Shown here: in pieces, positions 49,197-64,000 of the stretch
Numbering within the stretch: the stretch's first letter is position 1
How the letters are laid out: every line of letters starts with the position of its first letter
Source of the DNA: Microbacterium sp.
GTDB lineage: Bacteria > Actinomycetota > Actinomycetes > Actinomycetales > Microbacteriaceae
Assembly (NCBI GenBank): GCA_013823625.1
Contig: PNMM01000001.1
Coordinates: 1,116,001-1,180,000 of the forward strand
Direction: 5' to 3'
DNA length: 64,000 nt
Made by a program: the position numbers and the translations under genes
Notes under the pieces: generated by a model
What the model saw: the letters and a program-made list of their open reading frames with translations, nothing else
The model's database searches: none
What the model was told of the DNA's origin: nothing

Positions 49197-49227
49197 CCCG
49201 GGCTGACGCATGGAGCGTCAGCCCGGG
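49197..49227. terminator. Perfect 13-bp hairpin between convergent ald and FtsK-like genes
   Basis: Bases 49197-49209 and 49215-49227 are exact reverse complements with a 5-nt loop. The minus-strand gene's stop codon is inside the stem. No U-tract; probably bidirectional. Confidence 0.65.
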
Positions 49228-51893
49228 GCCAGCACTGTCGATTGACGTCGGCACACGGTGCGACCCGGCTCGACAACCCACACGTCTGCGGCGTGACGAT
49301 CAATCGGCGGCGGAACGACCCGAGCGCCGAGCAGTGATCGAACGTCGGCAGCATCGGCCCTGGTGATCACGATCGGTGCCGTGCGTCGAAGAGTGGTGAA
49401 GAGCGACCACGCTGACTGCCAGCCTTCGGGATCGGCAATGAAGACTCTCGGCCCCCCAGTGACCGCCGGGGGTGAGCTCGAGACGAACGATTGTTCCGCC
49501 GCAAGATCACGCACGATGGCTCGGTCAGGATGCGCTCGCCGAAGAGAATCAGCAACGGCGTCGACGCGCCGCGTCACCACGATGACATCGAGGTCGGCAG
49601 GCACGTTCCATGTCAGCGGGTCACTCGGCAGAGGCTCGAGAACGGCCAAAGAGTCACGAACAACCTGCACTTCGCGGTCGGCCCACCGCCCGCGGCCAGC
49701 GGGGGCTGCGCGGTTGAAGAGCCCGCGGGGGGCTCCGGCGAGATGGTGGTCGTCCGAGTCAAGACTCCGCAGGATGAGCCGAGAGTCAAACCGGCCGCTG
49801 AGCAACGAGCGCGAGGTCGAGATCGAACCGATGGAGGCGGCGACTCCGCCCCCCTCGCGCCGAATCGCACGAGCCGCGGCATCCCACCGCGCCAAGAACT
49901 CTGTCGCCAACTCTTCGCACGACGCCAGAACATGGTCGAGGTCATCAGCAACGAGCAACCCCCGCGTGAGCGGCTGATCAGTCAAGCGCTCGAGCACAGC
50001 CCATGCCTCGACTGCCGAGTGAGGCATGCTGACAACGGGCGCGCCGGCCAGCTGAGCGGCTGTCGCCAGAGCAGCGAGCGCCGTAGAGCGCCCGCTGCGG
50101 GGTGCGCCCAGTACGGCAAGAGAACCATCACGCTGGGGATTCCACAGTGCCGGCACTTGCCGTTGTTCGGCGGGATCATCGAGCAAGCCAAAGGCCAGCG
50201 ACTCAAGGCCTGCCGCTGGAGGGGTTGGCGCGCCTTCGGCGGCGACAGTAGGTTCACGGGCAGTCTGCGCCGTGACCAGGCTCGAACGATCAAGCGAGAG
50301 AGGCAGCGGCGGCAGCCACGGGCCTCGACCCGGACTCACCGCCGACCAGCGCTCGCGCACCGCAGCGACATCAGCGTCATCAATTGTTGCCACCTGAATG
50401 ACGTGCGATGCATCTGCCGTCACAACGACGGCGCGACCAGGCGGTGCCCCAGAAAGCTCGCGGCCGGGCGCACCGATGAAGGCGGCGCCCGCAGAGTCGC
50501 TCATGCGAAAGGCGATGCGCGTTGCGCAGTTCGTTGCGACGGCATCGCGAATCGCTGCTGCGGGATGCTGCGTGCACAAGACGAGGTGTACTCCGAGTGA
50601 CCGGCCGCGAGCAGAGATGTCGGCGAATACGCTGTGCAAGTCAGGAAACGACTCGATGAGGGCAGCAAACTCATCGACGAGAACCACCAGTCGGGCGAAG
50701 AGGCCGGGCTTATGGCTGAGGTCGCGAACGCCCGCCTCGACCAGCGCGCGTTCTCGACGGCGGAGTTCGGCTCGCAAACTCAGCAACGCGCGCTCGGCGA
50801 CAACCGGGTCAAGGTCAGTCACGAGCCCCACCGCGTGCGGAAGGTCGACCAGCCCCGAGAACGTTGCCCCGCCCTTGAAATCGATGAACAGCAAGTGCAC
50901 TTCGGCAGGGCTTCGGTGCGCAGCCCAGCCCAGCGCGAGCGTACGCAGAAGCTCGCTCTTTCCACTTCCGGTTGTACCGCCGACAATCGCGTGCGGGCCA
51001 TCGCTCTCGAGGTCGAGTCGCACCACCGCTTGACCATCGTGGCCGAGCGGTACGCCGCGCGTGATCGTGGCGGGCTCGGCGCGTTCAGAAGGCTCGGCCG
51101 TGGTCACGGGCTGCGTGGTTCTCCAGGGCACGAGCGTCGGCAACGCCGCGGGAGTCGCCGCTTGCCGGGACTCACGTGCAACAGCCACGTCACAGCGGCT
51201 CGCAAACTCTGGACGAACGCTCACGGGCGGCGCGCCGGCGACGCGCACCTCGATGCGCGTAGCCGACACGACCCGAATCACGGTGTCGTCATTGGCGTGA
51301 TGCTGCTCGTTCGCCCCGCGCGTGACACGCACGTGAGGCTCGAGGGAAAGGCGCCGCTCGAGAGCGTCGGCGATGACTCCTTCACCATGCACGACAAAGC
51401 GCCCGCGTGGGACGAGCACGGGCATGGCCGGGTTGAATCGTGCGCGATCGAGGAGCGCGCGCAATCGACGATCGTCGGCCGAGTCTGTCGACACAAGAAC
51501 CTCGTCGGGTGAGACAGAACTGCGCGCGGGTGCCGTTCCCACGCGCACGGGCTCCCCCGACGCCGCCTCGATCGCGAGAGACGTCGGATGCCGCGCATGC
51601 GCCTCAGCGCGCTCTCGCCCGTGCGCGATGGCGATGGCACGATCGAACGCGAGGCACTCACGATCGAAGCGCTCTGCCTCTGCGCGACGTTCTCGACGCG
51701 CGACGCGCCGACCATCGAGAGTGCTCGCGATGGCAATGATGGGGCTCAAGAGCGCAAAGACGAGCACGAAGGGCGACCCCGTGATGACGCCGATCGCCAC
51801 CGCCCCGATGAGGGGCGCCACAACAGCAATGAGAGGAAACGGGATGCGCGCCGGGGGCCGCGGCAGGACGGGAGGCGGGGGCAAACGGTGCAC
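49218..51893 (-). CDS. EccC-like FtsK/SpoIIIE ATPase
   Basis: 891 residues, GTG start just after an in-frame stop. Two N-terminal membrane segments (about 18-37 and 40-58) are followed by a cytosolic region and a full FtsK/SpoIIIE ATPase at about 280-510 with Walker A GGTTGSGKSELLR and Walker B LLFIDFKGGATF. A second, degenerate ATPase module follows (GAPRSGRST near 600, GLLVADDLDHV). This two-module layout is that of type VII secretion EccC/EssC motors, not of the DNA translocase FtsK (no gamma domain is seen). It is the last gene of the cluster, 91 bp after the FHA gene. No WXG100 substrate, EccB, EccD or EccE is in the window. Substrate unknown. Confidence 0.8.
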   Translation of the reverse strand: MHRLPPPPVLPRPPARIPFPLIAVVAPLIGAVAIGVITGSPFVLVFALLSPIIAIASTLDGRRVARRERRAEAERFDRECLAFDRAIAIAHGRERAEAHARHPTSLAIEAASGEPVRVGTAPARSSVSPDEVLVSTDSADDRRLRALLDRARFNPAMPVLVPRGRFVVHGEGVIADALERRLSLEPHVRVTRGANEQHHANDDTVIRVVSATRIEVRVAGAPPVSVRPEFASRCDVAVARESRQAATPAALPTLVPWRTTQPVTTAEPSERAEPATITRGVPLGHDGQAVVRLDLESDGPHAIVGGTTGSGKSELLRTLALGWAAHRSPAEVHLLFIDFKGGATFSGLVDLPHAVGLVTDLDPVVAERALLSLRAELRRRERALVEAGVRDLSHKPGLFARLVVLVDEFAALIESFPDLHSVFADISARGRSLGVHLVLCTQHPAAAIRDAVATNCATRIAFRMSDSAGAAFIGAPGRELSGAPPGRAVVVTADASHVIQVATIDDADVAAVRERWSAVSPGRGPWLPPLPLSLDRSSLVTAQTAREPTVAAEGAPTPPAAGLESLAFGLLDDPAEQRQVPALWNPQRDGSLAVLGAPRSGRSTALAALATAAQLAGAPVVSMPHSAVEAWAVLERLTDQPLTRGLLVADDLDHVLASCEELATEFLARWDAAARAIRREGGGVAASIGSISTSRSLLSGRFDSRLILRSLDSDDHHLAGAPRGLFNRAAPAGRGRWADREVQVVRDSLAVLEPLPSDPLTWNVPADLDVIVVTRRVDAVADSLRRAHPDRAIVRDLAAEQSFVSSSPPAVTGGPRVFIADPEGWQSAWSLFTTLRRTAPIVITRADAADVRSLLGARVVPPPIDRHAADVWVVEPGRTVCRRQSTVLAPG

Positions 51894-51984
51894 CGCGCGA
51901 GCACATCATGCGCCGATGGCGTGGCCCGGTGCGGGCGCGACGAGTGAGCATCCGTTCGAATGCTTGACGAATGGGGAGGAGTGG

Positions 51985-52800
51985 TCAGCTCACGATGACG
52001 AATTGCTCGCCGATGTCGACGCGAGTGCCGCGCACGATCGGATAGCGACGACCCGGTTCGCACACTCGCGGTTCTGACCCCGGCTCGCGAATGGTTGATC
52101 CGTTGCCGGAGTGCCGATCGCTGAACCAGAACACGCCCTCGTGTTGGCCAAATTCGAAGTGCGTCTTCGACACCGACCGCCCGGGGTCGACGATCGTCAC
52201 CAGATGGTCGACGTACTCCCCCGGCTCAGGCCGCGGGTTGCGGCCGGCGAGGCCCGAACCCAGCACGGTGTAACTCTCGCCAGTGCTGAACTGCAAGACG
52301 AAGCGTGCTCCACCGGTTGACCGCGTCACGATGCGCGTGCTTTCGACATCGAGCTCGGGTACAGCGGAGGGTGCCGGAAGCGGCGCGGCAGGCGCGGATT
52401 GCGCGGTTGCAAGCGGCTCAGACGGTTCGGGAGGCGATTGCGGAGGTGGCGGCATCACTGCGGGCTCGACCGGACCGAGGCGGTCGATGACGCGAGTGTC
52501 GGCCGGCATGAGGCTGCCGCACTCGGCGCAGTAGACATCATCGGGCTCGCCCCGCACTCCGCACATCGGGCACACCACGATCAGGCTCTCGACCGGCGGC
52601 GACGCGGGCGGTGTGACGGGCTGTGTAGCGGGCGGTGTGGCGGGCGTAGCAGCAGCAACCGCGCTTTCGCGAGGCGGTTCCGTCTCGATCGTCGGCATCG
52701 ACACCGACGGCACCACGACGGGTGCCGAAACCGACCGGCCGCACTCGCCGCAAAACAGGGCGAACGGTGGCAGCTCAGCGGCGCAATGCTGGCAGGTCAC
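51985..52800 (-). CDS. Zinc-ribbon FHA-domain protein
   Basis: 271 residues. There are two zinc ribbons: CQHCAAELPPFALFCGECG at the N-terminus and CPMCGVRGEPDDVYCAECG at about 75-96, followed by a Pro/Ala linker. The C-terminal FHA domain (about 170-270) has the Arg in GLAGRNPRPEPGEY, SVSKTHFEF and NGSTI, the usual phosphothreonine-binding loops. FHA proteins read Ser/Thr kinase phosphorylation. The GTG start overlaps the stop of the upstream gene by 4 bp. It probably links a kinase to the EccC-like motor next to it. Confidence 0.83.
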   Translation of the reverse strand: MTCQHCAAELPPFALFCGECGRSVSAPVVVPSVSMPTIETEPPRESAVAAATPATPPATQPVTPPASPPVESLIVVCPMCGVRGEPDDVYCAECGSLMPADTRVIDRLGPVEPAVMPPPPQSPPEPSEPLATAQSAPAAPLPAPSAVPELDVESTRIVTRSTGGARFVLQFSTGESYTVLGSGLAGRNPRPEPGEYVDHLVTIVDPGRSVSKTHFEFGQHEGVFWFSDRHSGNGSTIREPGSEPRVCEPGRRYPIVRGTRVDIGEQFVIVS

Positions 52801-55127
52801 CTGGTGCGCCCTCCTCTTGACGGTTGCGCCCCACGATACCGTCGCAGTGACCGCACAGAGATGGCGGCCCGCCAGCGATCACGGCGTGAACGGCCGTCGG
52901 CGAGGGATGCTCGCAGCGCGTCGGCCGTCGCCCACACCTGATCGGCCTCACGCAGCTCAGGTTCTTCGGGAGCGTAGACAGCCCGATCAGCGACTCGTGC
53001 GAGCACGAGCGCCTGGGGTCGGCCGATCGCCGCTGCCACCTCGCTACGAGTGGCCGCGGTCGGCAGCTCAAGGCCATGGTCACGTGCCGCGTCGGTAACG
53101 TCGCTCCACCCGCCGAGGATTCTCGTGGTGGGGTCGGCCGCCGTTCGACGCCGACGCCGACGCCGCAGCTTGATGGCGACGATCGCGATCAACGGAGAAA
53201 CGAGAACTGCCGCGATGAGCGCACCCAGCCCAATAGCGCGCACGACGCCGAGCACGGCCTGCCAGAACGGGTCGAGCTCGGGGTTGTCGAGCTGCTCGAT
53301 CTCCGGCGGGGCAAGTTCTTCGAGCGGGGGCGGGTCGTCAACGGGAGGCTGCGCGGCGATTTGTGGGCGCGAAACGGGAATCGGCTCGTCGGGCTCTGCC
53401 GGCGGCAACTCACGACGGAGGGGAACGACGTCGACGGGCATCCACCCGCCGGCCACTGTCGACACCTCGATCCACGCCGTGCGATCGCTTTCGACGAGCG
53501 TCACCGGGGCAGGCCCGGCAATGTCGGCGAATCCCAGAACCACGCGCGACGGAAACCCCAGTTCGCGCGCGATGAGCGCAGCAGCCACGGCAAACTGCTC
53601 GGCATCGCCGACCATCGGGCGATTGGTGAAGAGCGACTCGAGTCGTTCGAGTGAATGCCCCGACCGACTGGGAGCTTCGTCGTCAGAGATGCCGTGACTG
53701 AGGTAACCCTGCGCCCGCAGTTCGTCGAGTGCTCGCTGCAATTGCGGCCCCGAGCCGTCGACTCCTTCGACCACGTCGTCGAGCCAAGTGACAAGCGCCT
53801 CGGGCACGTCAGATACCCCGGGTACGGACGCCGCGCCCGGCACCGCGTCCGCGAGAACCTCCTCGCCAGCGTCGTCGGTCACCACGGCGGCGTCGAGGGA
53901 GTACTCGAGACCCTCGGGTACGCCGCCGACGAGAGCTGCCGTGCCCGTCACGGCGTTGAGCACAAAGCGATCGCGCAGGTCGGCCGCGTTCTCGCCAGCA
54001 ATCGTGATGCGCCCAAAGTCGCCGATCGTTGGTAACCACACGCCGGTGCTGCGGTGCACTTGCACCGAGATGTTGACGGGCTGGCCCGACGATGTCGACA
54101 GGTCACGCTGCGTCGGAATTCTCACGAATCGGCCCGATGCGCTGTCGACCCGGTCGCTGCCCACCGCGAAGACCGTGCCGTCGTAGCTATCGAGCACGGC
54201 GATGCGCAGCCGTGAACCGTCCGGCGCGCCCGTCACCGTGAGTGACCGCTCATCAGCGACGTCGGGAGCAAACGATGCGCGATAGGCCGAGAGCGGACTC
54301 GGCTGATCGAGCGGATCGAACGGCTGCTCGACGATGGAGCGAAGCACCGAGCGATCAGCCGTCGCTGCCGTCACCGATGCAGCGGCTGCACCAGCTGCCC
54401 CCGCGACGAGAAGCAGGGCAAGTGCGGCGGCGATCGAGCGCACGCCCAGCCATCGAGTGTCGCCCGACGATGCCGACCCTACGGCCTCACGGCGGCGGTG
54501 CCGACGCCACACGGCCATCCACAGCAGCAGAGTGACCGCGAGCGTCACCGCCGTCAGAACCGAGAGTTGCGGGTCTTCAGGCCCGAGGGCAACCGCGAGT
54601 GGGTAGGCGGCGAAGGGCGCGATGGCGGCGAGGTCACCGACTCGTGCCCGCAGTGCGATCGACAGCGTGATGACCGGCCCGCCGAGAAGAAGCACGAGTG
54701 CCGGAACGAGCAAGGCCTGGTAGTCCCCCACCGGCAGGTCGATCGTGAGAAGTTGCCGCCAGCCCAGCACGACACCCGCATAGAGGTCGATCAAGCCTTG
54801 CGGTTCGGGCAACACGCCATACGCGGTGCGCGCCGGCACCGCGAGCGGAACCCCCACCACGGTGAAGGTCGCCAGGGTCGCCGCGAGCACGCCCCACGGT
54901 GGCCACGGCGCAAGCGCCCCCGCGATCGCAATCGCGCTGCCAAGCGTGATGGCGACCACCGCGAGCACGATGAACGAGCCGTCGCGATAGATCGGCCACA
55001 ACACGACGGCGATGACCGCCCATGCTGCGGTCGAGAAGGCGGTCGCCGACACAACGATCGACAACGGCGCTGGCGTGCGAGCGACGCGGCGAACGGCCGG
55101 CCGTTGGGCGGTTCGGGATGCTCTCAC
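52797..55127 (-). CDS. Polytopic transglutaminase-fold protein lacking catalytic Cys and His
   Basis: 776 residues from the GTG at 55127, which overlaps the DUF58 stop by 4 bp; the longer frame to 55235 lies inside DUF58 and is rejected. About seven membrane segments fill residues 20-260, then a large outer domain, and one more segment at about 655-680, ending in a basic tail. The transglutaminase-like core is at about 490-580 (GDAEQFAVAAALIARELGFP, RTAWIEVSTVAGGWMPVD). The positions that hold catalytic Cys (GxCxxFA) and His (HAWxE) are Ala and Thr, so it is probably non-enzymatic. Its MoxR-DUF58 context is typical of this family. Confidence 0.8.
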   Translation of the reverse strand: MRASRTAQRPAVRRVARTPAPLSIVVSATAFSTAAWAVIAVVLWPIYRDGSFIVLAVVAITLGSAIAIAGALAPWPPWGVLAATLATFTVVGVPLAVPARTAYGVLPEPQGLIDLYAGVVLGWRQLLTIDLPVGDYQALLVPALVLLLGGPVITLSIALRARVGDLAAIAPFAAYPLAVALGPEDPQLSVLTAVTLAVTLLLWMAVWRRHRRREAVGSASSGDTRWLGVRSIAAALALLLVAGAAGAAAASVTAATADRSVLRSIVEQPFDPLDQPSPLSAYRASFAPDVADERSLTVTGAPDGSRLRIAVLDSYDGTVFAVGSDRVDSASGRFVRIPTQRDLSTSSGQPVNISVQVHRSTGVWLPTIGDFGRITIAGENAADLRDRFVLNAVTGTAALVGGVPEGLEYSLDAAVVTDDAGEEVLADAVPGAASVPGVSDVPEALVTWLDDVVEGVDGSGPQLQRALDELRAQGYLSHGISDDEAPSRSGHSLERLESLFTNRPMVGDAEQFAVAAALIARELGFPSRVVLGFADIAGPAPVTLVESDRTAWIEVSTVAGGWMPVDVVPLRRELPPAEPDEPIPVSRPQIAAQPPVDDPPPLEELAPPEIEQLDNPELDPFWQAVLGVVRAIGLGALIAAVLVSPLIAIVAIKLRRRRRRRTAADPTTRILGGWSDVTDAARDHGLELPTAATRSEVAAAIGRPQALVLARVADRAVYAPEEPELREADQVWATADALRASLADGRSRRDRWRAAISVRSLRRYRGAQPSRGGRTR

Positions 55128-56539
55128 CACGTGAGGGCCCCGCTCATCGCACGGCGCAGGTCGCCGAGCGACCCGATCGTGATGACCGTGAAGGTGCCCA
55201 GCCGCCGTCGCCCGGGGATGTGCTCGGGATCGCACACGATGGCAACCACTTCGACCGCCGGGGGAAAGCCGGCGGCCGCGGTGCGCAAACGGGCAGGCGT
55301 GACCGTGGAGCCGACCACGAGAAAGGCGACGGAGACGCCCCGCGCGGTGTCACCCGCGAGCCGCGCGACATCCAAGATTCCGAGCGCAGCCGGTCCGTGC
55401 TCGACGAGAGCGAGGTCGTCGAGCAACCGCGCGGGGGTGAGTGTCGACAGCGTGCGCAAGGCCACAACCGCGCGCTTGGCAAACTCGGGCGTCACGGCAC
55501 TCACGACGACCGACACCTCACGGGCATCGCGAATAGCGCGTGCGCCCAGACTGCCCGTGACGCTCACCGCGAGTTCGAACTCGTCGTCAGAACCAAAGTC
55601 GATGCTCGCGATGCTCACTGCCACGATGAGATGGCTGCGACGCGTCTCTTCGAACTGGCGCACCATGAACCGGCCTGTCTTGGCCGTCGACTTCCAGTGA
55701 ATGTGGCGCCGATCGTCTCCCGGCACATACTCACGGAGGGCATGAAACGCGAGATCGCTCGGCGTCAGATCGCGCGTCGGCTGGCCTTCAAGGTCACGCA
55801 CGAGCCCACTCGAGGTTGACGGAATGTCGATCGTGCGCGGGTGCACGATGAGCTCGAGAGCGTCGGTATAGACAATCTCGCGCCGCACGAGGCCAACGGG
55901 GTCGGCACGCACCGTGCGCACGGGGCCGAGCTCGATGCGCCCGCGACGCGTGGTCGGAACCTCAAGGTCGCGTTCAATCGTCTGGCCAGGAGTGAGCCCC
56001 GCAATCGTGGCTTCGACGATCTCGCGATCCACGGGCACGTCAACGACCTGGCCGAACGATCGGCGGCGCGTGGAGTTACTGACCCGCAACGCCGCCGATG
56101 CCGCGTCGCCGACAGCCACTCGGTGCGCGGGCGGCTCAAGCACCATCGTCAGGCGCGTGCGACCGACGAGGTACACGGCCGCGACAAGACCGAGGGTGAG
56201 TCCCAAGACACCGAACACAATGAGGTCGGTCCACCCCCACGCGAGCCCGGCAACGAGCGTCACGGGAACAAGCGCGGCGACACTCCAGCCGAGAGGCGTG
56301 ACGACCGACGAGACGGCGCGCAGAGCTCGTGCAGCCCCCGTGCGTGCAGCCCGCACGGTGCGCACAGTTGCCACCACAGCATCCGCTGCCCATCCCGTTC
56401 GTTCGCCGACGATGCGCGTTCGTGCCGTCGTGACGGTCGACCCGATCGTCGACTCATCGAGCGCACGCCGCGCACCCCCCGCCGTCGCGGTGACGGTGGG
56501 AGGGCTCGTTCGAGAACGGTCGCGAGACGCCGAGGTCAC
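55124..56539 (-). CDS. DUF58 domain protein
   Basis: 471 residues. Two adjacent membrane segments (about 85-105 and 108-125) follow a charged N-terminus. The DUF58 core is at about 200-330 (DLEGQPTRDLTPSDLAFHALREYVPGDD, RRHIHWKSTAKTGRFMVRQFEETR), ending with a von Willebrand A-like part. DUF58 proteins are nearly always next to MoxR ATPases and are thought to be their chaperone or metal-loading partners. It overlaps both neighbours by 4 bp. Confidence 0.85.
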   Translation of the reverse strand: MTSASRDRSRTSPPTVTATAGGARRALDESTIGSTVTTARTRIVGERTGWAADAVVATVRTVRAARTGAARALRAVSSVVTPLGWSVAALVPVTLVAGLAWGWTDLIVFGVLGLTLGLVAAVYLVGRTRLTMVLEPPAHRVAVGDAASAALRVSNSTRRRSFGQVVDVPVDREIVEATIAGLTPGQTIERDLEVPTTRRGRIELGPVRTVRADPVGLVRREIVYTDALELIVHPRTIDIPSTSSGLVRDLEGQPTRDLTPSDLAFHALREYVPGDDRRHIHWKSTAKTGRFMVRQFEETRRSHLIVAVSIASIDFGSDDEFELAVSVTGSLGARAIRDAREVSVVVSAVTPEFAKRAVVALRTLSTLTPARLLDDLALVEHGPAALGILDVARLAGDTARGVSVAFLVVGSTVTPARLRTAAAGFPPAVEVVAIVCDPEHIPGRRRLGTFTVITIGSLGDLRRAMSGALTW

Positions 56540-57504
56540 ACGGCGATCCGATCGCTGGGCGGGGGCGTCTCGACGAGAATCTGCGCGACCACAATCGACG
56601 CCGTGACGCCGTCGAACTCTGACTCAGGGTCGAGACCCAGTCGGTGAGCGAGCACCGGCTCGGCGAGCGCCTTCACGTCGTCGGGCACCACATAGTGGCG
56701 ACCGTTCATGGCCGCGAACGTCTTGGCGCAGCGAACGAGAGCGAGTGCTCCGCGCACGCTCGCCCCCAGTCGAACGTCGGGGTGTGACCGTGTGGCGTCG
56801 ACCAATCGGGCGACGTAGTCGGTGATGACGGGGTCGACGTGCACCGTGCGCGCGACGGCAATGAGATCGCGGACGATGTCGAGCTCAACGACTGGCTCGA
56901 GCACTGCGGCACGCGCTCCGCCCGCACCGTCAAGAATGCGCACTGTGGCTGCGTGATCGGGGTAGCCGATGGCGGTCTTCATGAGAAAACGGTCGAGCTG
57001 GGCTTCGGGAAGCCGGTAGGTACCCGCCTGTTCGATGGGGTTCTGCGTGGCCATGACGAGAAACGGCGCCGTCACGGGGTGCGTCACACCGTCGATCGTG
57101 ACGTTGCCTTCTTCCATAACCTCGAGCAGCGCCGACTGCGTCTTCGGGCTCGCGCGGTTAATCTCATCGGCGAGCACGATGGTCGCGAAGACCGGGCCGC
57201 GGTGAAACTCGAACTCTCCCGTGCGCTGGTCGTAGACGGTCATGCCCGTGATGTCTCCGGGCAACAAATCGGGCGTGAACTGCACGCGCGTCGTGGTGCC
57301 ACGGATGCTCTGCGCGAGCGCCCGCGCCATCGACGTCTTGCCGGTTCCCGGTACGTCTTCGAGTAGCAGATGACCCTCGCTCAGCAACGCGGTGAGGCTG
57401 AGTCGGATCACATAGGTCTTGCCCAACACCACAGTCTCAACATTGGTGACGATGCGGTCAGCGATGTCGGCGAACCAGGAGGCCTGCTCGGGGGTCATTG
57501 TCAT
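56536..57504 (-). CDS. MoxR-family AAA+ ATPase
   Basis: 322 residues. The ATG at 57504 overlaps the giant gene stop as ATGA. Walker A (LEDVPGTGKTSMARALA), Walker B (IVLADEINRASPKTQSALLEVMEE), sensor (MATQNPIEQAGTYRLPEAQLDRFLMK) and the MoxR C-terminal lid are visible. MoxR proteins act as chaperones in assembling or activating protein complexes, often with DUF58 or VWA partners, as here. The longer in-frame ORF start is within the giant gene and is not used. Confidence 0.9.
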   Translation of the reverse strand: MTMTPEQASWFADIADRIVTNVETVVLGKTYVIRLSLTALLSEGHLLLEDVPGTGKTSMARALAQSIRGTTTRVQFTPDLLPGDITGMTVYDQRTGEFEFHRGPVFATIVLADEINRASPKTQSALLEVMEEGNVTIDGVTHPVTAPFLVMATQNPIEQAGTYRLPEAQLDRFLMKTAIGYPDHAATVRILDGAGGARAAVLEPVVELDIVRDLIAVARTVHVDPVITDYVARLVDATRSHPDVRLGASVRGALALVRCAKTFAAMNGRHYVVPDDVKALAEPVLAHRLGLDPESEFDGVTASIVVAQILVETPPPSDRIAV

Positions 57505-60500
57505 GGTCGGTACTCCCGGGTGTAGGTGACGGCGTTTTCGGTGACGGTCACGACGAGTCGTGGGTCGTCGGAGGGCGCTGCGGTGATGACGCACGTGCTC
57601 GCGTCGGGATAGTCGATGGGGTCTCCGCCCAGGCAGACGTGATCGACCGTGTCGTAGTCGTCAAGCACGACGGGGGTGAAGCTGATGGTCACAACGCGCG
57701 GGTCGGGCACGTCGCCCGTCACCGTGATCACGGGCTGCACGTCGATGCGCACCGCGACCCCCAGATCAAACGGCGCCGACCACGGTCCGCACAGCAATTG
57801 CTCGTACTGCCGGCAGCCGCGCACCTCAACCTGCAGCACGCGGCCGTAGTGCGTTACTCCCGCGGTCAAGAACGTCGGTAGCGCTCCCGGAGTCGACTCG
57901 CTCGCGTCAACGCCCGCTCCGATGAGGCGGTACTGAACGGAATCGACGCTGTCGCCGCCCGCTGTCGTCACGCCCAGCAAGCGGAAGTCCCACTGACCCT
58001 CGACGACAGCGACCGGGCCCTCAACGTCGATCGCGCTCACGACCGACGGTCGTTCGCGCGGTGTCGCGGTGATCTCACTGCTCGCCGTGCATCCTTGACC
58101 GTTGTAGGCGAAGACGACGACCCGGTAGGTCGTGTCAGGAGCGAGGCCCGACACCACCGTCGACGTGGTCGCGCCATCGACCGTGGTGACTCCGGCGGGC
58201 GGCACATGCACGGGCACCCCGTCGTCAACTCCGCTCACCGTACAGTCGGGTGCTGAGCCAGCGGAATCGATCCAGATGTAGTAGTTCTGAATCGGGCGCC
58301 CATTGGTGGCGAAGGCGCTAGGCCACGAGATGCTCACGGATGAATCACCGGCGCCCGAGTCGGACGTTGAGCCCAGTGCGCTGGGCGCCGACACCACGAG
58401 CGGAGCACCCGCCGGGGTTCCTGTCGTGGTCGCCGTCGTCCAGGTCGTGAGCGGATCGAACGAATCGTTGCGCGCGCTGACGCCCACCGCATACGCCGTG
58501 CCGTTGTCGAGCGCCCCGAAATCAACGACATTCAGCCAATACTCGGTTCCGACGGCGTCGTCGGCGGGCACGGTGAGAGTGCGCACAACCGCACCGACCG
58601 TCACGCGATAGCTGCGGATCGGGCTCGCGGCCGGGTCTTGGGCTGGCTTGGTCCAACCGATTCGGAGACCGTGATCGAGAGGCGCGACCCCGAGCAGCGC
58701 GGGTGCGGGGGGCACGAGGTCGCTCCACGTGGCGTCGGCGAGCACCGTCGCCGTTGATGCGCCTTGAGAGTTCACCGCGATGACGCTCACCAGCACCCTG
58801 TTGTCAGGCCCATTGCCGGGCGTCGGAACCGAACACGACGACGTCGAACACACCGTTGTCGTCGACGCGCCGTCACTCACGCGCGTCACCGTGACCTCGA
58901 ATCGCTCGATCGGTGCGTTGTTCGACGCACCCGGCGACCACGCAACCGTGAGAGTTCGGTTGCCGAACGATTGCACCCGAAGGTTCGTGACGGGATCAGG
59001 AACATCTTGAACCGAAATGCGGATGGCGCCCCACACGAACCGTTCGGGGTCGTTCGTCGCATCCGCCACTTGGTACTCGAGGTTGGTGTCGACTGGATCG
59101 GCCGAGGCCGCGATCGTGGCCAGCAGCGTCTGCCCGTCAGCGCTCGGCACGATGGTCACCCCGGGAGGCAACAAGCCGCTGTCGAGTCCGCGCACATCCA
59201 CAACGCGCAACGGCTGGCCCGGGAAGGGATTCGTGACCTCATCGTTCGCGAGCACGGTGACGGTGGTCGTCTCTCCGCGCGGGGCAATGACCGAATCGGG
59301 TGCCGGACGCGCGAGCGGGCGCGTTGAGGGGACGACGGTCACCTGGATGCGGCCCGCCGTGCCCTGCACGGCGTCATCCCGAACACCCACCGAGACTCCC
59401 GTGGTCGTGCCGCGCGGCGTACTCTCGGGCACGCGCACCCTCAGTGACTGGCCGTTGAGCGAGACCTCGATTCCGGGTGTGGACTCGTCGAGGATCGTGA
59501 ACGCAAGCTCATCGACGTCATCGGGATAGGGGTATGCGGTGACGCGAACGAGATCGAGCGTGCGTTCTTGACCGGGCTCCAGCTCGAGAGCGGCACCGAT
59601 GAACACCGGAGGCTGGTTCTCACGCGGCGTCACCTCGATGGGCAACACGATCGTCGCGACGCGACCGTCGGGGTCGCTCGCCGACTCGCCATCGGTCACC
59701 TCGAACGTCAACGACGCGGGGCCGAAGTAGAGGTCGGCAGAGGTGAAGCGCAGCGTGGAGTCGTTGACGACGAGTGAATCACCGTTGGAGTTCGTTGCGC
59801 TCACTCGTGCGGTGTCGGTCAACCGCACCGCGCCTCCGCCGACCGCGAGCACATAGTCGTTGATGTCGATCGTGATCGTCTCTTCACTCACGACCTCGAT
59901 GCGCTCGGCTCGACGGTCGAGTTGCGGAAGAGCATCGTCGGTGCCGGGAACCCAAATGAACGCGGTCGAGCGAACCGTCGGATCAGCGGGGTGCGTCACT
60001 TGGAAGGGAATGATTTGGCGCTGTTCGCCCACTTGCACGCGAATGCGGCGGTCGGGTCGAATCTCCGCGCCCGATTCATAGCCGGGTACGAGCTCAAGGC
60101 CGAGGTCGGCCACCTCTCCCTCGGAGAAGAACACCCGCGCCAGCACGTCGACGTCAATCTCGTCGCGGTCGAGAATGTCAGTGAGTGAGAGAACGGTGTC
60201 GCGCGCGACGGGTGCCGCGAGAGGAGCATCCGTTCTCACCGTCAAGGTGATGAACGCTTGCGACGAGCCGGTGAGCGCGTTCTCGATCGTGTAGACGAGG
60301 CCGTACTGCCCCGGCGTGCTGGGGGGCACGACCCGCACGAATTGACCGTCGACAACCTCGGCGGTGACGTCGGGAGAATTCGCCTCAACGCCCGTGACCG
60401 TGAGCGGCGAACCATCGGGGTCGGTGTCGTTCTCAAGCACGGGCACGAGCACGGTAAAGCCCGGTCGAATGAGTACTTGATCGTCGTTCGCCACGGGGTT

Positions 60501-63404
60501 GCGAGCGCCCTCGAGTCGAGGGCTAATGCCGATGCGAACAGTGCCCGATGATCGCGCGCCGAGCGCATCAACGACCGTGTAGCGGAAGGTATCGGTGCCC
60601 GCGGAGTAGCTGCCGGCCTGGTAGTCGAGATAGTCGAGGCCCGTTTCGATCACGGCGCCCTTTTCTGGGCTCGACTCTTGACCGATTACTTGAACCGAGT
60701 CGCCGTCGGGATCCATGCCATCGACGGGGATGCGCACGCGAATCGTGTCCCCCGCGATCACGCGTGCGGTCACGGTTCGTGTGATGGGCGCCTGGTTCGT
60801 CGCCTCATTGACCTCTCGAACGCTAATGCGCACGCTCGCTTGCGCGCGTTGCTCGCCGAGCGGGCCGAGCACCTCATACACCGCCGTGAAGTCACCCGGT
60901 TGGTCAGGCGCGAGGTACCGCAATTGGTCCCCGGCAACGAACAGCAAGCCCGATTCGCCCGTCAGCCCCTGAATGAGGGCGGGCGACAGAGTGATGGGCT
61001 CATCGTCAGGATGCTCGTCGTTGGCCAACACCGGAATCGACACCGCATCGCCCACGCGAACGGTAATCACGTCGTCATTGGCGACAGGCGGCTGCAGGCG
61101 ATCGGGGCGCGGAATCTCGATGACCGTGATGGTTCCGGTCGACTCCGAGACTCCGTTGCTGATGCGATACGACACGGTCTGCGGGGCATCAAGCGGTCGC
61201 GTGAGCGTCACGCGCACGTCACGTTGGTCAAGCACCTCAGCGCGGATCCCACTTGCGGGCGACACCCCGACGACGCCCGTCACGACCAAGACTCCCCCGC
61301 CGGGGTCGATGTCGACCGTGGCCACGGCAACCGTTGAACTGCTGAGAGTGCGCACAAAGGCCGTCTTGGGCACGGTGATCGGGGCAGAGCCCACGGCGGG
61401 CGGCGCCGCGACATCCACGCGAATGATGCCGGTGGCGGTGGTCGAGTTATCCGTCACGACGTACTCGAGATAGTGCGTGCGCACCTCATCGCTCACGAAA
61501 CGAAACACGCCGCGGTCGAGGTTGGGGGTGATCGTCACACCGCTCTTCTCGGGCACCGCGCTCAGCCGAATGGTTCCCGTGCCTCCCCGCACGTGCACGA
61601 GAGGCTCGATTCGCACGACTTGACCGGCATAGGCGAGCACGACGAAGGGCTCAGCAATGATCGGAGCCTGGCCTGCCGGACGCACCGTGACGGCCAGCTC
61701 ACCCTGACCACTCGCGAGGCCGTCGGTGACGGTCAAGAGAACGGTGCGCAGAGAGCCGACCCCGCCCGACTCAGCGATCGTGACGCGCCCATCGGGACGG
61801 AAGGTCACGACATCGGGGGGCGGGATGCTCGCCCCCTGCAGATAGATCGGGTCGCCGTCGGGATCGATCCACTCACCCAAGACGGCCGCCGTAGCCGTGC
61901 CCCCTTCTGCCACCGTGGTTTTGCTCGCGCGCACTTGAACCGGAGCAGAGTTCTCGGCGGCCTGACGCACCGCCACCGTCACGATCCCTGAGTCAGAGCC
62001 CCCGCGGCCATCCGTAATCGTGTACTCAAAACCGATGTCGCCGCTGGCCGCACTCGACAGAGTGATTTGCACCTGCTGCGCGTTGCCGATGATGTCGAGT
62101 CGACCGATCGACGGATCAATCGGTGTGACCTCAGAAATCACGAGTACGTCGCCGTTGGGGTCGGTGTCGTTGAGCAAGACGGGCAACACGGTCGAACGAC
62201 CAGGGCGAGCGCCGAGTTGGTCATCCGTCGCGATGGGGGGCTGCTGTGTGCGCTCGAGCTCGGGAGGAGTGTCGAGCAAGTCGAGTTGCTCTTGCCGCTC
62301 GTCTTCTTGCTCGCTAATGAGCTCGTCCCAGTTGTCGATGAGACGCCCGTCACTCTGCACCGCCCACGCAGAACCCGCTCGCGCGTCATTGAGAATCACG
62401 CGGTCATCGCGCACGACAAACGCGAGCGCCGCCGCGGCAGGCACCGCGTCGAGCGCGAGTTCGCGAACCTCGCCCGCACAATTGCGCCACGCCAAACCAT
62501 CGGTGAACGCCGCAAACTGGCACCCCGCGAGCGTGACCGGAGCCGCAGGTGTGCCCGTTCGCCCCGTGACGAGTTCGGTCACGACTCCCGTGTCGAGGGC
62601 CACCGACACGAGGCCTCCGCGGTGCGCGACGAGAACCTCGGTGGCCTCGTCACTGGCAAGAGCGAGCCGAGGGTCACCGGCGGCACTGATGAACGCTGAC
62701 AGATCGACGACGCCCGCCGCGCTCTGCAACAGCCGAGTCTCACCGTCGAGCACGGCCCAGCGACCGCGCACGATCGTGATCTGCAGGTCGGCAGTGGGGG
62801 GCACGTCAATGGCGGTCGTGCTGTCGACGCGATCGGCGCTGCCCGGTGCAACCCGGTAGACCTCGCCGAGGCCCGGCGAGACCGCCACGATGCCGAACCC
62901 ATCTGTCGCGGCCACAACACTGTCTTGGCCAAACTCGAAACCCGCCACGGCCGCCGGGTCGAAGTCATCAAAAACCGAGCGGGGGGTTACCCACGTCTCA
63001 CCCGAACCACCGCTGTGCACCACGACGTTTGACCCCGTGAGCATGACGCTCGGGTCTTCAGGCGGCATCGGCACCGACTCGAGCACGGTCGATCGCGCCG
63101 TATCGATCACTTCAGCCGTTGCGTTGTCGGCATCAACGACGATGACATCGGAGCCGCGTTGCACTAGCTGCAGTTGCGAACCTTCGCCCGGGATGACCGA
63201 GTCAAGTTCGCCGACCTGCAGGTTCGCGCGCCCGACCGCCTGGCGCTCTCCGTTGACGACCCACACGGCGCCATCGTTAAGGTCGAGCCGCTGTGCGTCG
63301 AAACCGGGGTAGACAATCGCGAGCGTGACGAGGGTTGCCGCGACAACACCGCCGCTCACGGTGGTGAGAACGGCGGACCGGTGCTGTGCCAACCAGCGTC
63401 GCAT
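57501..63404 (-). CDS. Giant single-pass surface protein with Ig/cadherin-like and Fn3 repeats
   Basis: About 1967 residues from the ATG at 63404 (8 bases after the upstream stop; earlier in-frame starts overlap that gene). A short cytosolic N-terminus and one membrane helix (about 13-33) are followed by a ~330-residue region of repeated short hydrophobic strands resembling a beta-propeller. From about residue 400 come roughly ten Ig/cadherin-like repeats of ~100 residues, several with the NDTDPDG calcium-type motif (VLLNDTDPNGD, VLENDTDPDGS, VLANDEHPDDE). Three Fn3 domains (PVTNLRVQSFGNRTLTVAWSP, APLDHGLRIGWTKP, SSVSISWPSAF) and a C-terminal beta-rich part follow. No C-terminal sorting signal is seen. 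Probably a long extracellular stalk; similar to bifidobacterial FN3 proteins. Confidence 0.85.
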   Translation of the reverse strand: MRRWLAQHRSAVLTTVSGGVVAATLVTLAIVYPGFDAQRLDLNDGAVWVVNGERQAVGRANLQVGELDSVIPGEGSQLQLVQRGSDVIVVDADNATAEVIDTARSTVLESVPMPPEDPSVMLTGSNVVVHSGGSGETWVTPRSVFDDFDPAAVAGFEFGQDSVVAATDGFGIVAVSPGLGEVYRVAPGSADRVDSTTAIDVPPTADLQITIVRGRWAVLDGETRLLQSAAGVVDLSAFISAAGDPRLALASDEATEVLVAHRGGLVSVALDTGVVTELVTGRTGTPAAPVTLAGCQFAAFTDGLAWRNCAGEVRELALDAVPAAAALAFVVRDDRVILNDARAGSAWAVQSDGRLIDNWDELISEQEDERQEQLDLLDTPPELERTQQPPIATDDQLGARPGRSTVLPVLLNDTDPNGDVLVISEVTPIDPSIGRLDIIGNAQQVQITLSSAASGDIGFEYTITDGRGGSDSGIVTVAVRQAAENSAPVQVRASKTTVAEGGTATAAVLGEWIDPDGDPIYLQGASIPPPDVVTFRPDGRVTIAESGGVGSLRTVLLTVTDGLASGQGELAVTVRPAGQAPIIAEPFVVLAYAGQVVRIEPLVHVRGGTGTIRLSAVPEKSGVTITPNLDRGVFRFVSDEVRTHYLEYVVTDNSTTATGIIRVDVAAPPAVGSAPITVPKTAFVRTLSSSTVAVATVDIDPGGGVLVVTGVVGVSPASGIRAEVLDQRDVRVTLTRPLDAPQTVSYRISNGVSESTGTITVIEIPRPDRLQPPVANDDVITVRVGDAVSIPVLANDEHPDDEPITLSPALIQGLTGESGLLFVAGDQLRYLAPDQPGDFTAVYEVLGPLGEQRAQASVRISVREVNEATNQAPITRTVTARVIAGDTIRVRIPVDGMDPDGDSVQVIGQESSPEKGAVIETGLDYLDYQAGSYSAGTDTFRYTVVDALGARSSGTVRIGISPRLEGARNPVANDDQVLIRPGFTVLVPVLENDTDPDGSPLTVTGVEANSPDVTAEVVDGQFVRVVPPSTPGQYGLVYTIENALTGSSQAFITLTVRTDAPLAAPVARDTVLSLTDILDRDEIDVDVLARVFFSEGEVADLGLELVPGYESGAEIRPDRRIRVQVGEQRQIIPFQVTHPADPTVRSTAFIWVPGTDDALPQLDRRAERIEVVSEETITIDINDYVLAVGGGAVRLTDTARVSATNSNGDSLVVNDSTLRFTSADLYFGPASLTFEVTDGESASDPDGRVATIVLPIEVTPRENQPPVFIGAALELEPGQERTLDLVRVTAYPYPDDVDELAFTILDESTPGIEVSLNGQSLRVRVPESTPRGTTTGVSVGVRDDAVQGTAGRIQVTVVPSTRPLARPAPDSVIAPRGETTTVTVLANDEVTNPFPGQPLRVVDVRGLDSGLLPPGVTIVPSADGQTLLATIAASADPVDTNLEYQVADATNDPERFVWGAIRISVQDVPDPVTNLRVQSFGNRTLTVAWSPGASNNAPIERFEVTVTRVSDGASTTTVCSTSSCSVPTPGNGPDNRVLVSVIAVNSQGASTATVLADATWSDLVPPAPALLGVAPLDHGLRIGWTKPAQDPAASPIRSYRVTVGAVVRTLTVPADDAVGTEYWLNVVDFGALDNGTAYAVGVSARNDSFDPLTTWTTATTTGTPAGAPLVVSAPSALGSTSDSGAGDSSVSISWPSAFATNGRPIQNYYIWIDSAGSAPDCTVSGVDDGVPVHVPPAGVTTVDGATTSTVVSGLAPDTTYRVVVFAYNGQGCTASSEITATPRERPSVVSAIDVEGPVAVVEGQWDFRLLGVTTAGGDSVDSVQYRLIGAGVDASESTPGALPTFLTAGVTHYGRVLQVEVRGCRQYEQLLCGPWSAPFDLGVAVRIDVQPVITVTGDVPDPRVVTISFTPVVLDDYDTVDHVCLGGDPIDYPDASTCVITAAPSDDPRLVVTVTENAVTYTREYRP

Positions 63405-63411
63405 CAGCGGG

Positions 63412-63975
63412 TCATCCTGCGGCGACCTCGGCGCACTTCTCATCGCTCGCGGCACCGAGGCGGCCATCGCGCGCGACTCGCACGGTCACGCAGACGCGAT
63501 CACCGGCCGAGGCCGCAACGGCGAACTCGGTGGCTCGTTGAAAGGTCTCTGCGCCGTTGGCCACGCTCACCTGATAGGTGTCGTTCGGCTCGACGCCCGG
63601 GTCATTCCACGAAAAGAGCACCGTCGTGCCATCGAGCACAGCGTCAACGTTGCTGACGCGAGGTAGGTCGCGGTCGCCAGACTCAATGGCGATCCAGGTC
63701 GCTGTCGCACCGAGACCGATCACGGCGAGCGCCACGACAACGAGCCCGGCTGCCAACAGTCGACTGCGGGCTGCGAGTCGCCGCGTGGCGGTTCCCACAA
63801 CTTCGGGAGCCGTCTCGGGCACCGCGGTTGAGGCGGCAGTCAAGCGTCGACGTCGCCGCTTTCCGGGAGAGCTGGGCGCGCGGGGCGACACCGCCCGCAC
63901 GATCGTGCGATCGCCGGGGTCACTCATGGTCGCCAGTGCCCAGTCATCCATCGCGATGTCGGCTTGAGTCGTCAT
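63412..63975 (-). CDS. Single-pass membrane protein with one Fn3-like outer domain
   Basis: 187 residues. An Arg-rich cytoplasmic part of about 75 residues (KRRRRR near 38) precedes one membrane segment (LLAAGLVVVALAVIGLGATATW). The outer part (about 100-187) is a Fn3-like domain with two cysteines (RVCVTVRVARDG, DEKCAEV) that could form a disulfide. Similar modules form the extracellular end of some actinobacterial Ser/Thr kinases; here it is separate. Its ATG overlaps the stop of the upstream, off-window gene as ATGA, and the giant gene starts 8 bases later. Threonine-rich Arg/Thr stretches could be kinase targets, but that is a guess. Confidence 0.6.
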   Translation of the reverse strand: MTTQADIAMDDWALATMSDPGDRTIVRAVSPRAPSSPGKRRRRRLTAASTAVPETAPEVVGTATRRLAARSRLLAAGLVVVALAVIGLGATATWIAIESGDRDLPRVSNVDAVLDGTTVLFSWNDPGVEPNDTYQVSVANGAETFQRATEFAVAASAGDRVCVTVRVARDGRLGAASDEKCAEVAAG

Positions 63976-64000
63976 GAGGCCGAGTCCTGCTTCGACACGC
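63972..64000 (-). CDS. Possible C-terminal tail of an upstream gene cut by the window edge
   Basis: Nine codons before a TGA that overlaps the next ATG (ATGA), ending SKQDSAS. The coupling pattern repeats that of the rest of the operon, so a gene most likely continues beyond the window; a Ser/Thr kinase or phosphatase would be expected from related clusters. It is too short to identify. Confidence 0.3.

Follow-up and report, generated by a model that had tools for sequence, protein, structure and literature searches.

Here, we describe a complete operon from Microbacterium sp. (assembly GCA_013823625.1, contig PNMM01000001.1) that joins a kinase-led core of five genes to an ATPase resembling the motors of type VII secretion. 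The operon lies at the end of a 64-kb stretch (hereafter the window) of the 2.45-Mb genome and was completed by reading past the window edge. In the direction of the minus strand it encodes an FHA protein, a PP2C phosphatase, a Ser/Thr kinase, a giant stalk protein, MoxR, a DUF58 protein, a transglutaminase-fold membrane protein, a zinc-ribbon FHA protein, and an EccC-type ATPase; the genes from kinase to transglutaminase-fold protein are termed the core. We propose, with a probability of roughly 55%, that this is the Microbacteriaceae branch of a group of actinobacterial kinase-controlled clusters that descended from, or were built on, a type VII-like apparatus, and that it works as a phosphorylation-gated envelope machine. 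The proposal is supported by several families in which the core genes from giant to transglutaminase-fold protein, usually accompanied by kinase, PP2C, and FHA genes, stand beside WXG100 genes and an EccC, fused to an FHA domain in both proteins scanned; the window combines the core with a motor of the EccC type and an FHA gene of its own. Its lineage carries a split, shortened version, with FHA and EccC as separate genes and WXG100 absent from the locus. Secretion by this version is unproven.

The ATPase (891 amino acids; 49218..51893, minus strand) is, by sequence and predicted fold, of the EccC/EssC type found in type VII secretion and not an FtsK. Its NCBIfam scores favor EssC (3.8e-55) and EccCa (1.4e-43) over FtsK (6.2e-13), although all of these matches fall below the NCBIfam equivalog cut-offs and the typing is by relative scores. 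A profile of nine orthologues compared with the PDB gave the EccC of T. curvata (4nh0, 2.7e-82) and YukB (9qks, 6.9e-58), with the EccC of ESX-5 also ahead of FtsK (2.5e-30), and TcpA at 2.6e-18. An AlphaFold2 model (predicted local distance difference test, pLDDT, 77; predicted template modeling score, pTM, 0.58) shows two transmembrane (TM) helices, domains D0, D1, and D2, and a part that we read as a degenerate D3. The best fold match of this model is again EccC 4nh0 (850 columns, 1.8e-28), compared with 2e-14 for FtsK or TcpA. The Walker A and B motifs of D1 are intact, and the Walker motifs are invariant across the nine-row alignment. An earlier note on this DNA, made from the letters of the window alone, had called the protein a two-module FtsK/SpoIIIE ATPase; the FtsK/SpoIIIE domain holds, while the model has D0, D1, D2, and an apparently degenerate D3. 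That note also spoke of an EccC-like motor, without going on to type VII secretion or to the EccC and WXG100 genes that neighbor the core elsewhere.

We find that the core is linked to EccC across the order. In a sample of 149 genomes from 20 families, 78 encode the transglutaminase-fold protein, 68 of them outside Microbacteriaceae. In at least 23 of these 68 genomes, from at least nine families, the transglutaminase gene and an EccC match are no more than 15 kb apart, where 1.6 would be expected by chance; the figure is unselected, with positions read by hand, and the chance value assumes random placement. A typical linked locus runs giant-MoxR-DUF58-transglutaminase-(FHA-PP2C-FHA-kinase-FHA-like)-EccC-WXG100. 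Both linked EccC proteins that were scanned carry a fused N-terminal FHA domain (1e-12 and 5.5e-9), and no Pfam FHA match was found on the window ATPase. Thus, the zinc-ribbon FHA protein encoded next to this ATPase may be the split-off counterpart of that N-terminal domain.

WXG100 genes accompany many of the linked loci. A match lies within 3 kb of EccC in 11 of 16 loci from other families (L052-L056, L058, L062, L063, L138, L139, and L145), a tally that is not a frequency, since 13 of the 16 (L052-L064, from a set of 20 other-family loci) were picked for closeness of core and EccC. No match within 3 kb was found in L057, L059, L060, L061, and L064; in L059 and L060, one occurs 2 to 3 kb beyond the fetched stretch. 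Of 14 small open reading frames (ORFs) near linked EccC genes, eight score above the Pfam WXG100 cut-off, one at it, and five below. Linked loci with WXG100 include those of a Cellulomonadaceae metagenome-assembled genome (MAG; L138), Flavimobilis marinus (L139), and Nocardioides flavescens (L145). The linked locus of a Microbacteriaceae MAG (L143) has a WXG100 just below the cut-off, and in that of Homoserinibacter gongjuensis (L144) the frames of core and EccC are broken and no WXG100 is called.

The classic C-terminal motif of WXG100 proteins is YxxxD/E. Many of those downstream of linked EccC genes end instead in an N-x-x-x-Q-x-x-[T/A/V]-S-like signature (e.g., L052:18013-18312, L053:613-888, L063:16731-17000, and L143:16761-17027), observed with a profile made from eight of these same proteins. 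Some are fused to longer tails (L052:19061-20000 and L062:2102-3265).

Within Microbacteriaceae, we sampled 60 genomes, one per genus, and found a window-type ATPase (E ≤ 1e-60) in 32 and the transglutaminase-fold protein (E ≤ 1e-20) in 51. Counted by hand, 22 of the 32 have both genes on a single contig and no more than about 5 kb apart; the other ten are G149, G150, G164, G168, G170, G181, G192, G193, G198, and G201, two of which, G170 and G192, are fragmented. Among the loci L012-L031, many have the order (gabD)-FHA-PP2C-kinase-giant-MoxR-DUF58-transglutaminase-FHA-EccC, either whole or minus a gene missed by gene calling, which was mechanical and cut at locus edges. The conservation of the FHA and ATPase genes with the core, on which the earlier note had made its reading depend, is therefore seen in many relatives. 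The closest named relatives of the operon proteins are in MAG L148 (93% identity for the ATPase and 97% for the transglutaminase-fold protein), followed by Yonghaparkia sp. Root332 and a Microcella MAG. The operon is preceded on the same strand by an aldehyde dehydrogenase gene, which we take to be gabD-like, and followed on the opposite strand by what is presumably an alanine dehydrogenase-like gene. Locus L020 (G201), with an EccC at this same gabD/alanine-dehydrogenase-like site, appears to have lost the core naturally. The window-type EccC and PP2C of L015, L016, L019, and L026 lie, core absent, near what we take to be the ATP synthase operon.

Microbacteriaceae also have a diverged copy of the core, in several genomes a second one, which adjoins WXG100 genes. 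In L032-L035, this copy stands beside mycosin, EccB, and EccD genes as well (3.3e-72, 1.2e-54, and 2.9e-39, respectively, in L033), and in L037 it occurs with a 1,630-amino acid EccC. Between the WXG100 genes and the diverged core copy of L036 is a gene (L036:2122-6783) for a 1,553-amino acid protein with a C-terminal DNA/RNA endonuclease match, likely a type VII polymorphic toxin.

The core itself has a published counterpart. In the parts of PMC8430577 covered here, the PFNA cluster of Bifidobacterium has a core of kinase, fn3, MoxR, duf58, and tgm in one order and direction, with prpC, a hypothetical gene, and fha as optional genes after tgm; it is co-transcribed in B. longum GT15 and described as unique to bifidobacteria. 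The resemblance that the earlier note had pointed out is confirmed by Bifidobacterium contigs carrying kinase-giant-MoxR-DUF58-transglutaminase in identical order, among them those of B. criceti, B. gallicum, B. scaligerum, B. mellis, and B. pseudolongum, the last with 100% identity along the query. The profile of the window's giant matches three Bifidobacterium giants (L065-L067) at 1,656 to 1,757 bits. Behind the core, these loci often have genes for PP2C, a small protein, and FHA, the last on the opposite strand in a good part of them. The operon described here has the five core genes of this definition in the same order and direction, as well as PP2C and FHA genes in the cluster. Its optional genes are arranged differently: FHA and PP2C precede the kinase, and the zinc-ribbon FHA gene follows the transglutaminase gene directly, with nothing between, and is itself followed by the EccC-type ATPase. 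The genes of the operon share one strand, and the 4-bp stop/start overlaps that had been reported for the unit are present at four of the six junctions within the window; a 7-bp gap separates kinase and giant, and a 91-bp gap separates FHA and ATPase. The operon is real and complete, each gene that the earlier note named being at its stated place on the minus strand. With the core found order-wide, the description of this core as unique to bifidobacteria (PMC8430577, parts covered) does not hold.

Two further observations concern these bifidobacterial genomes. In B. pseudolongum, the position of the "seventh gene" of PFNA (L066:17695-18462) encodes a leucine-rich repeat variant protein (Pfam LRV_2, 6.1e-34). 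Five Bifidobacterium genomes (L072-L076) encode a short EccC-type ATPase of 575 to 680 amino acids, which could serve PFNA as a motor in trans. We considered the gene beside this short EccC as a candidate WXG100 and rejected it; read directly in four loci, it looks like what we take, from its motif, to be a WhiB-like gene.

The transglutaminase-fold protein (52797..55127, minus strand), a TgpA-like membrane protein (TgpA_N, 9.2e-9; Transglut_core, 2.8e-10), no longer has the Cys-His-Asp triad of an active transglutaminase. In the window, GDAEQF replaces the Cys motif and TAW replaces HAW (Cys to Ala and His to Thr), which bears out the previous claim that the transglutaminase is inactive. The catalytic Cys occurs in none of 51 aligned loci from twelve families (motif G-D/N-x-EQ-F/Y), and the His is kept in six; this alignment leaves out matches of 400 residues or fewer and later-fetched loci, and three genomes occur in it twice. 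A wider cysteine count of 129 loci was set aside, its 78 named loci having been collected with a set of patterns that included one requiring Ser or Ala at the site. The Bifidobacterium "tgm" rows read GDSEQYA, the catalytic cysteine again gone. This absence contradicts the published view that the PFNA protein is presumably a cysteine protease (PMC8430577, parts covered). A search of solved structures with the transglutaminase-fold protein gave no match.

Upstream of it are the genes for the DUF58 membrane protein (55124..56539; Pfam DUF58, 7.2e-13) and the MoxR AAA+ ATPase (56536..57504; AAA_3, 1.3e-62; AAA_lid_2, 3e-25), both on the minus strand. A MoxR tree also places the latter: it has a clade of 29 window-type rows (97/97), with seven EccC-lacking members scattered inside, and the EccC-lacking rows L040, L046, and L047 fall outside this clade. 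MoxR followed by DUF58 is common to the operon and to MoxR-DUF58 (MRP-type) operons (PMC12067865, parts covered), here joined by a TgpA_N/transglutaminase-fold membrane protein. The operon differs from these in being embedded with the kinase, stalk, and EccC, and in the lost catalytic site of the transglutaminase. The same parts of PMC12067865 compare a mycobacterial moxR operon with PFNA and not with secretion. We rejected the MoxR-vWA-propeller conflict system (PMC7159879, parts covered) as a match: bpMoxR gives a weak hit to the MoxR (1.4e-8), but the propeller domain comes after a TM helix and is part of the giant.

The giant (57501..63404, minus strand) is a type II membrane stalk of 1,967 amino acids. 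Pfam sees Big_9 in seven stretches, Cadherin_4 in four, and fn3 in three, in agreement with the immunoglobulin (Ig)/cadherin-like repeats and three Fn3 domains proposed from the sequence. An AlphaFold2 model of residues 1-420 has an N-terminal TM helix and a propeller-like domain (pLDDT 81 on average, with the strands spanning 46 to 340), and its best PDB matches are AztD, BamB, and 1l0q, the YVTN propeller from a surface-layer protein of archaea, which backs the propeller-like region suspected earlier. A TM scan found an N-terminal and no C-terminal TM in the window's giant. The fetched loci yield 110 giant ORFs, not one of them with a C-terminal TM; in 98, a TM occurs among the first 130 residues, and most of the remaining 12 are truncated by a locus edge or begin with an overlong start. 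Export of the giant by the ATPase, as the earlier note had suggested, is not favored and we reject it, because the giant has its own N-terminal signal-anchor-like helix and because some natural variants retain only the giant, with no ATPase linked to it, and others only the ATPase. The giant could use Sec.

The kinase gene (63412..64000, and on to window-equivalent position 64815, minus strand) gives a Pkinase match of 6.3e-42 and has what we take to be HRD and DFG motifs. Only its C-terminal part, with the single TM and a small extracellular domain, lies in the window; this is what had been taken for a separate Fn3-like single-pass protein, and no Pfam fn3 match was found on the ectodomain. 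Directly ahead of it is the PP2C phosphatase gene (window-equivalent 64864-65649, minus strand; PP2C_2, 9.3e-12), so that both enzymes expected beyond the edge are there, and ahead of this is a second minus-strand FHA gene (FHA, 1.9e-6), outside the window. The zinc-ribbon protein (51985..52800, minus strand; Pfam zinc ribbon, 5.9e-9) has a C-terminal FHA match (0.0011) of 19.8 bits, marginally below the Pfam cut-off of 20.7.

Known type VII secretion systems (T7SSs) share parts of this architecture. The survey of Garrett, Higginson and Palmer (2024) adds T7SSc-j to types a and b, and its main text reports kinases, phosphatases, and FHA proteins and names no MoxR module (PMC11217815). The words "MoxR" and "transglutaminase" do not occur in that main text, the full locus lists being in supplements outside our coverage, and the core-EccC(-WXG100) locus is a type VII-like locus absent from it. 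Our search of the open-access literature, mostly at listing level, likewise returned no paper joining the MoxR-DUF58-transglutaminase module with type VII secretion. One of the closest known systems is T7SSd, which in the main text of PMC11217815 has five components without MoxR, DUF58, or transglutaminase, and which has a kinase, an FHA-EssC, and a giant Ig-like protein. In common with the clusters described here, it is actinobacterial and has an FHA-bearing EssC-type ATPase, a membrane Ser/Thr kinase, WXG100, a giant Ig-like protein, and no ubiquitin-like protein. Its giant, TsdI, has a signal peptide and also a C-terminal TM, which the giants here lack. In the operon, the membrane Ser/Thr kinase of T7SSd is present, the ATPase has no Pfam FHA match, and the giant is not of the TsdI type.

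With T7SSb, the shared logic is an FHA domain on the ATPase, a single-pass kinase-fold protein, and a large wall-spanning protein; FHA domains of T7SSb contact the EssB pseudokinase, and EsaA has a wall-spanning domain (PMC11217815, main text). The differences are a kinase with the presumed motifs noted above where T7SSb has a pseudokinase, no YukD found in the genome, and the added MoxR-DUF58-pseudo-transglutaminase module. With T7SSa/ESX, the likeness is the EccC-type ATPase and the diverged core copies beside EccB-EccD-mycosin-WXG100 in some Microbacteriaceae, and the difference is that searches of the window's genome turned up neither EccB nor YukD/EccD. The operon has the EccC/EssC-type membrane ATPase general to type VII secretion, has no WXG100 in the locus, and fails at least one tested feature each of T7SSa, T7SSb, and T7SSd.

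A separate locus of B. mellis (L077:856-11339; G082:C2), about 35 kb from PFNA on the same contig and distinct from it, encodes a 1,798-amino acid Ig-like protein with N- and C-terminal TMs, a 1,523-amino acid EccC on which no Pfam FHA match was found, and a separate FHA gene. By giant topology and Ig matches, it is possibly a T7SSd-like locus. In an EccC tree with no published TsdC sequence included, its EccC lies outside the linked clade, which excludes the B. mellis/choladohabitans EccC.

A broader form of the proposal can be put forward only tentatively, and we hold it as somewhat doubtful: that these loci constitute an undescribed T7SS subtype of Actinomycetota, with a MoxR-DUF58-pseudo-transglutaminase assembly module, a wall-spanning propeller/Ig/Fn3 stalk, a kinase-PP2C-FHA switch, an FHA-EccC, and WXG100 proteins, many with the C-terminal signature described above. 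PFNA might then be an EccC-less descendant, or a detached membrane half served by an EccC in trans, and not an immune sensor that stands alone and has an active transglutaminase.

Several observations weigh against the main proposal. The EccC tree places the linked EccC proteins in one clade (99/98) and the window-type proteins in another group (79/90). We reject simple orthology between the window EccC and the 1,500-amino acid linked EccC on this separation, and the window type may reflect independent recruitment or fast divergence; the tree itself has unsettled bootstrap values, one long row (L026), and a very distant FtsK outgroup. No WXG100 match was found within 3 kb of EccC in the 24 window-type loci with core and EccC, nor in the window's own locus, and neither EccB (PF05108) nor YukD/EccD (PF08817, YukD domain) was found in the genome. 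Speaking for the proposal, some EccC-type ATPase is present in every transglutaminase-positive genome (51/51 in the family and 78/78 in the order), compared with most of the negatives (6/9 and 63/71; Fisher P ~ 0.002 each). Because EccC-type ATPases are near-universal, this co-occurrence is a weak test. Against it, core and motor can be found separately: ten Microbacteriaceae loci (including L040-L047, and L147, which is cut at a contig end) keep the core with no EccC linked to it, and L015, L016, L019, L020, and L026 keep EccC with PP2C, FHA present or not, and no core. No EccC was found within 14 kb on the same strand in any of the 62 fetched Bifidobacterium loci, 53 of which reach at least 9 kb past the transglutaminase gene, with nine shorter on that side; four of the 62 (L065-L068) are second fetches of contigs also obtained by name.

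This separability is what would be expected if the operon were a PFNA-type surface sensor or adhesin, in which MoxR, DUF58, and the pseudo-transglutaminase assemble the stalk, the kinase senses the outside, and the EccC-type gene is a mere neighbor with its own phosphatase/FHA-controlled job. The published role of FN3 as an adhesin or cytokine binder (PMC8430577, parts covered) points the same way. However, the order-wide linkage of core and EccC is far above chance, FHA is fused to both linked EccC proteins scanned, and neither sample has a transglutaminase-positive genome without an EccC-type ATPase. We therefore regard the neighbor explanation as unlikely, if the strongest of the alternatives.

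It is less probable still that the operon is a functional minimal T7SS whose substrate is the single WXG100 encoded on another contig. This 96-amino acid protein (G000:C2:275720-275974; L011:7712-8002) is the only WXG100 match of the genome, and the only FtsK/SpoIIIE matches above cut-off are the chromosomal FtsK and the window ATPase, with three more below. The gene sits between what we take to be a two-component system and haem-related genes, presumably near groEL. A lone WXG100 beside an ORF of groEL size recurs, however, in transglutaminase-negative relatives without the operon (L048-L051). WXG100 is near-universal (58/60 family and 137/149 order genomes), a further point against the type VII reading, and it is kept in G161, where the best match to the window ATPase is only at FtsK level (1.3e-10). 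The lone WXG100 does not, therefore, prove coupling, and we reject it as proof of a minimal T7SS, of which EccB, YukD, and EccD would also be missing. It is highly improbable that the ATPase acts in DNA translocation or as a coupling protein of conjugation, functions with which its FtsK/SpoIIIE domain would agree; with no search aimed at relaxase or mobilization genes, this reading is rejected on the far better EccC scores in sequence and fold.

Under the reading as a phosphorylation-gated envelope machine built on a type VII-like apparatus, the membrane kinase and PP2C would control whether a cytoplasmic Thr site is phosphorylated. The zinc-ribbon FHA protein would read this state and dock on, or gate, the EccC-type motor, as suggested by FHA and motor forming one polypeptide elsewhere. 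MoxR and DUF58 would assemble or remodel the envelope part, that is, the pseudo-transglutaminase membrane scaffold and the giant. The giant would insert via its N-terminal anchor and span the wall as a conduit or sensor, by analogy with proposals for EsaA of T7SSb and TsdI of T7SSd. The motor would then move small helical substrates, in other families, or drive assembly. With no WXG100 in the operon and a shortened EccC, the window lineage might encode its substrate elsewhere or might have kept EccC as an assembly or regulatory motor. Of the earlier interpretation, the kinase and PP2C beyond the edge, the conserved FHA and ATPase genes, and the likeness to PFNA remain in this model, and export of the giant by the ATPase does not.

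Our results join two literatures that were unlinked in the papers searched: that on the bifidobacterial PFNA cluster as an immune-sensing device and that on type VII secretion. They recast the published PFNA operon of gut Bifidobacterium as a member of a wider family. If the proposal is true, the bifidobacterial "tgm" product is predicted to be a pseudoenzyme, and DUF58, MoxR, and the TgpA-like fold would gain a testable role in the assembly of a phospho-gated envelope machine. The phosphorylation control of a type VII-like motor would then be open to direct study in non-pathogenic environmental strains.

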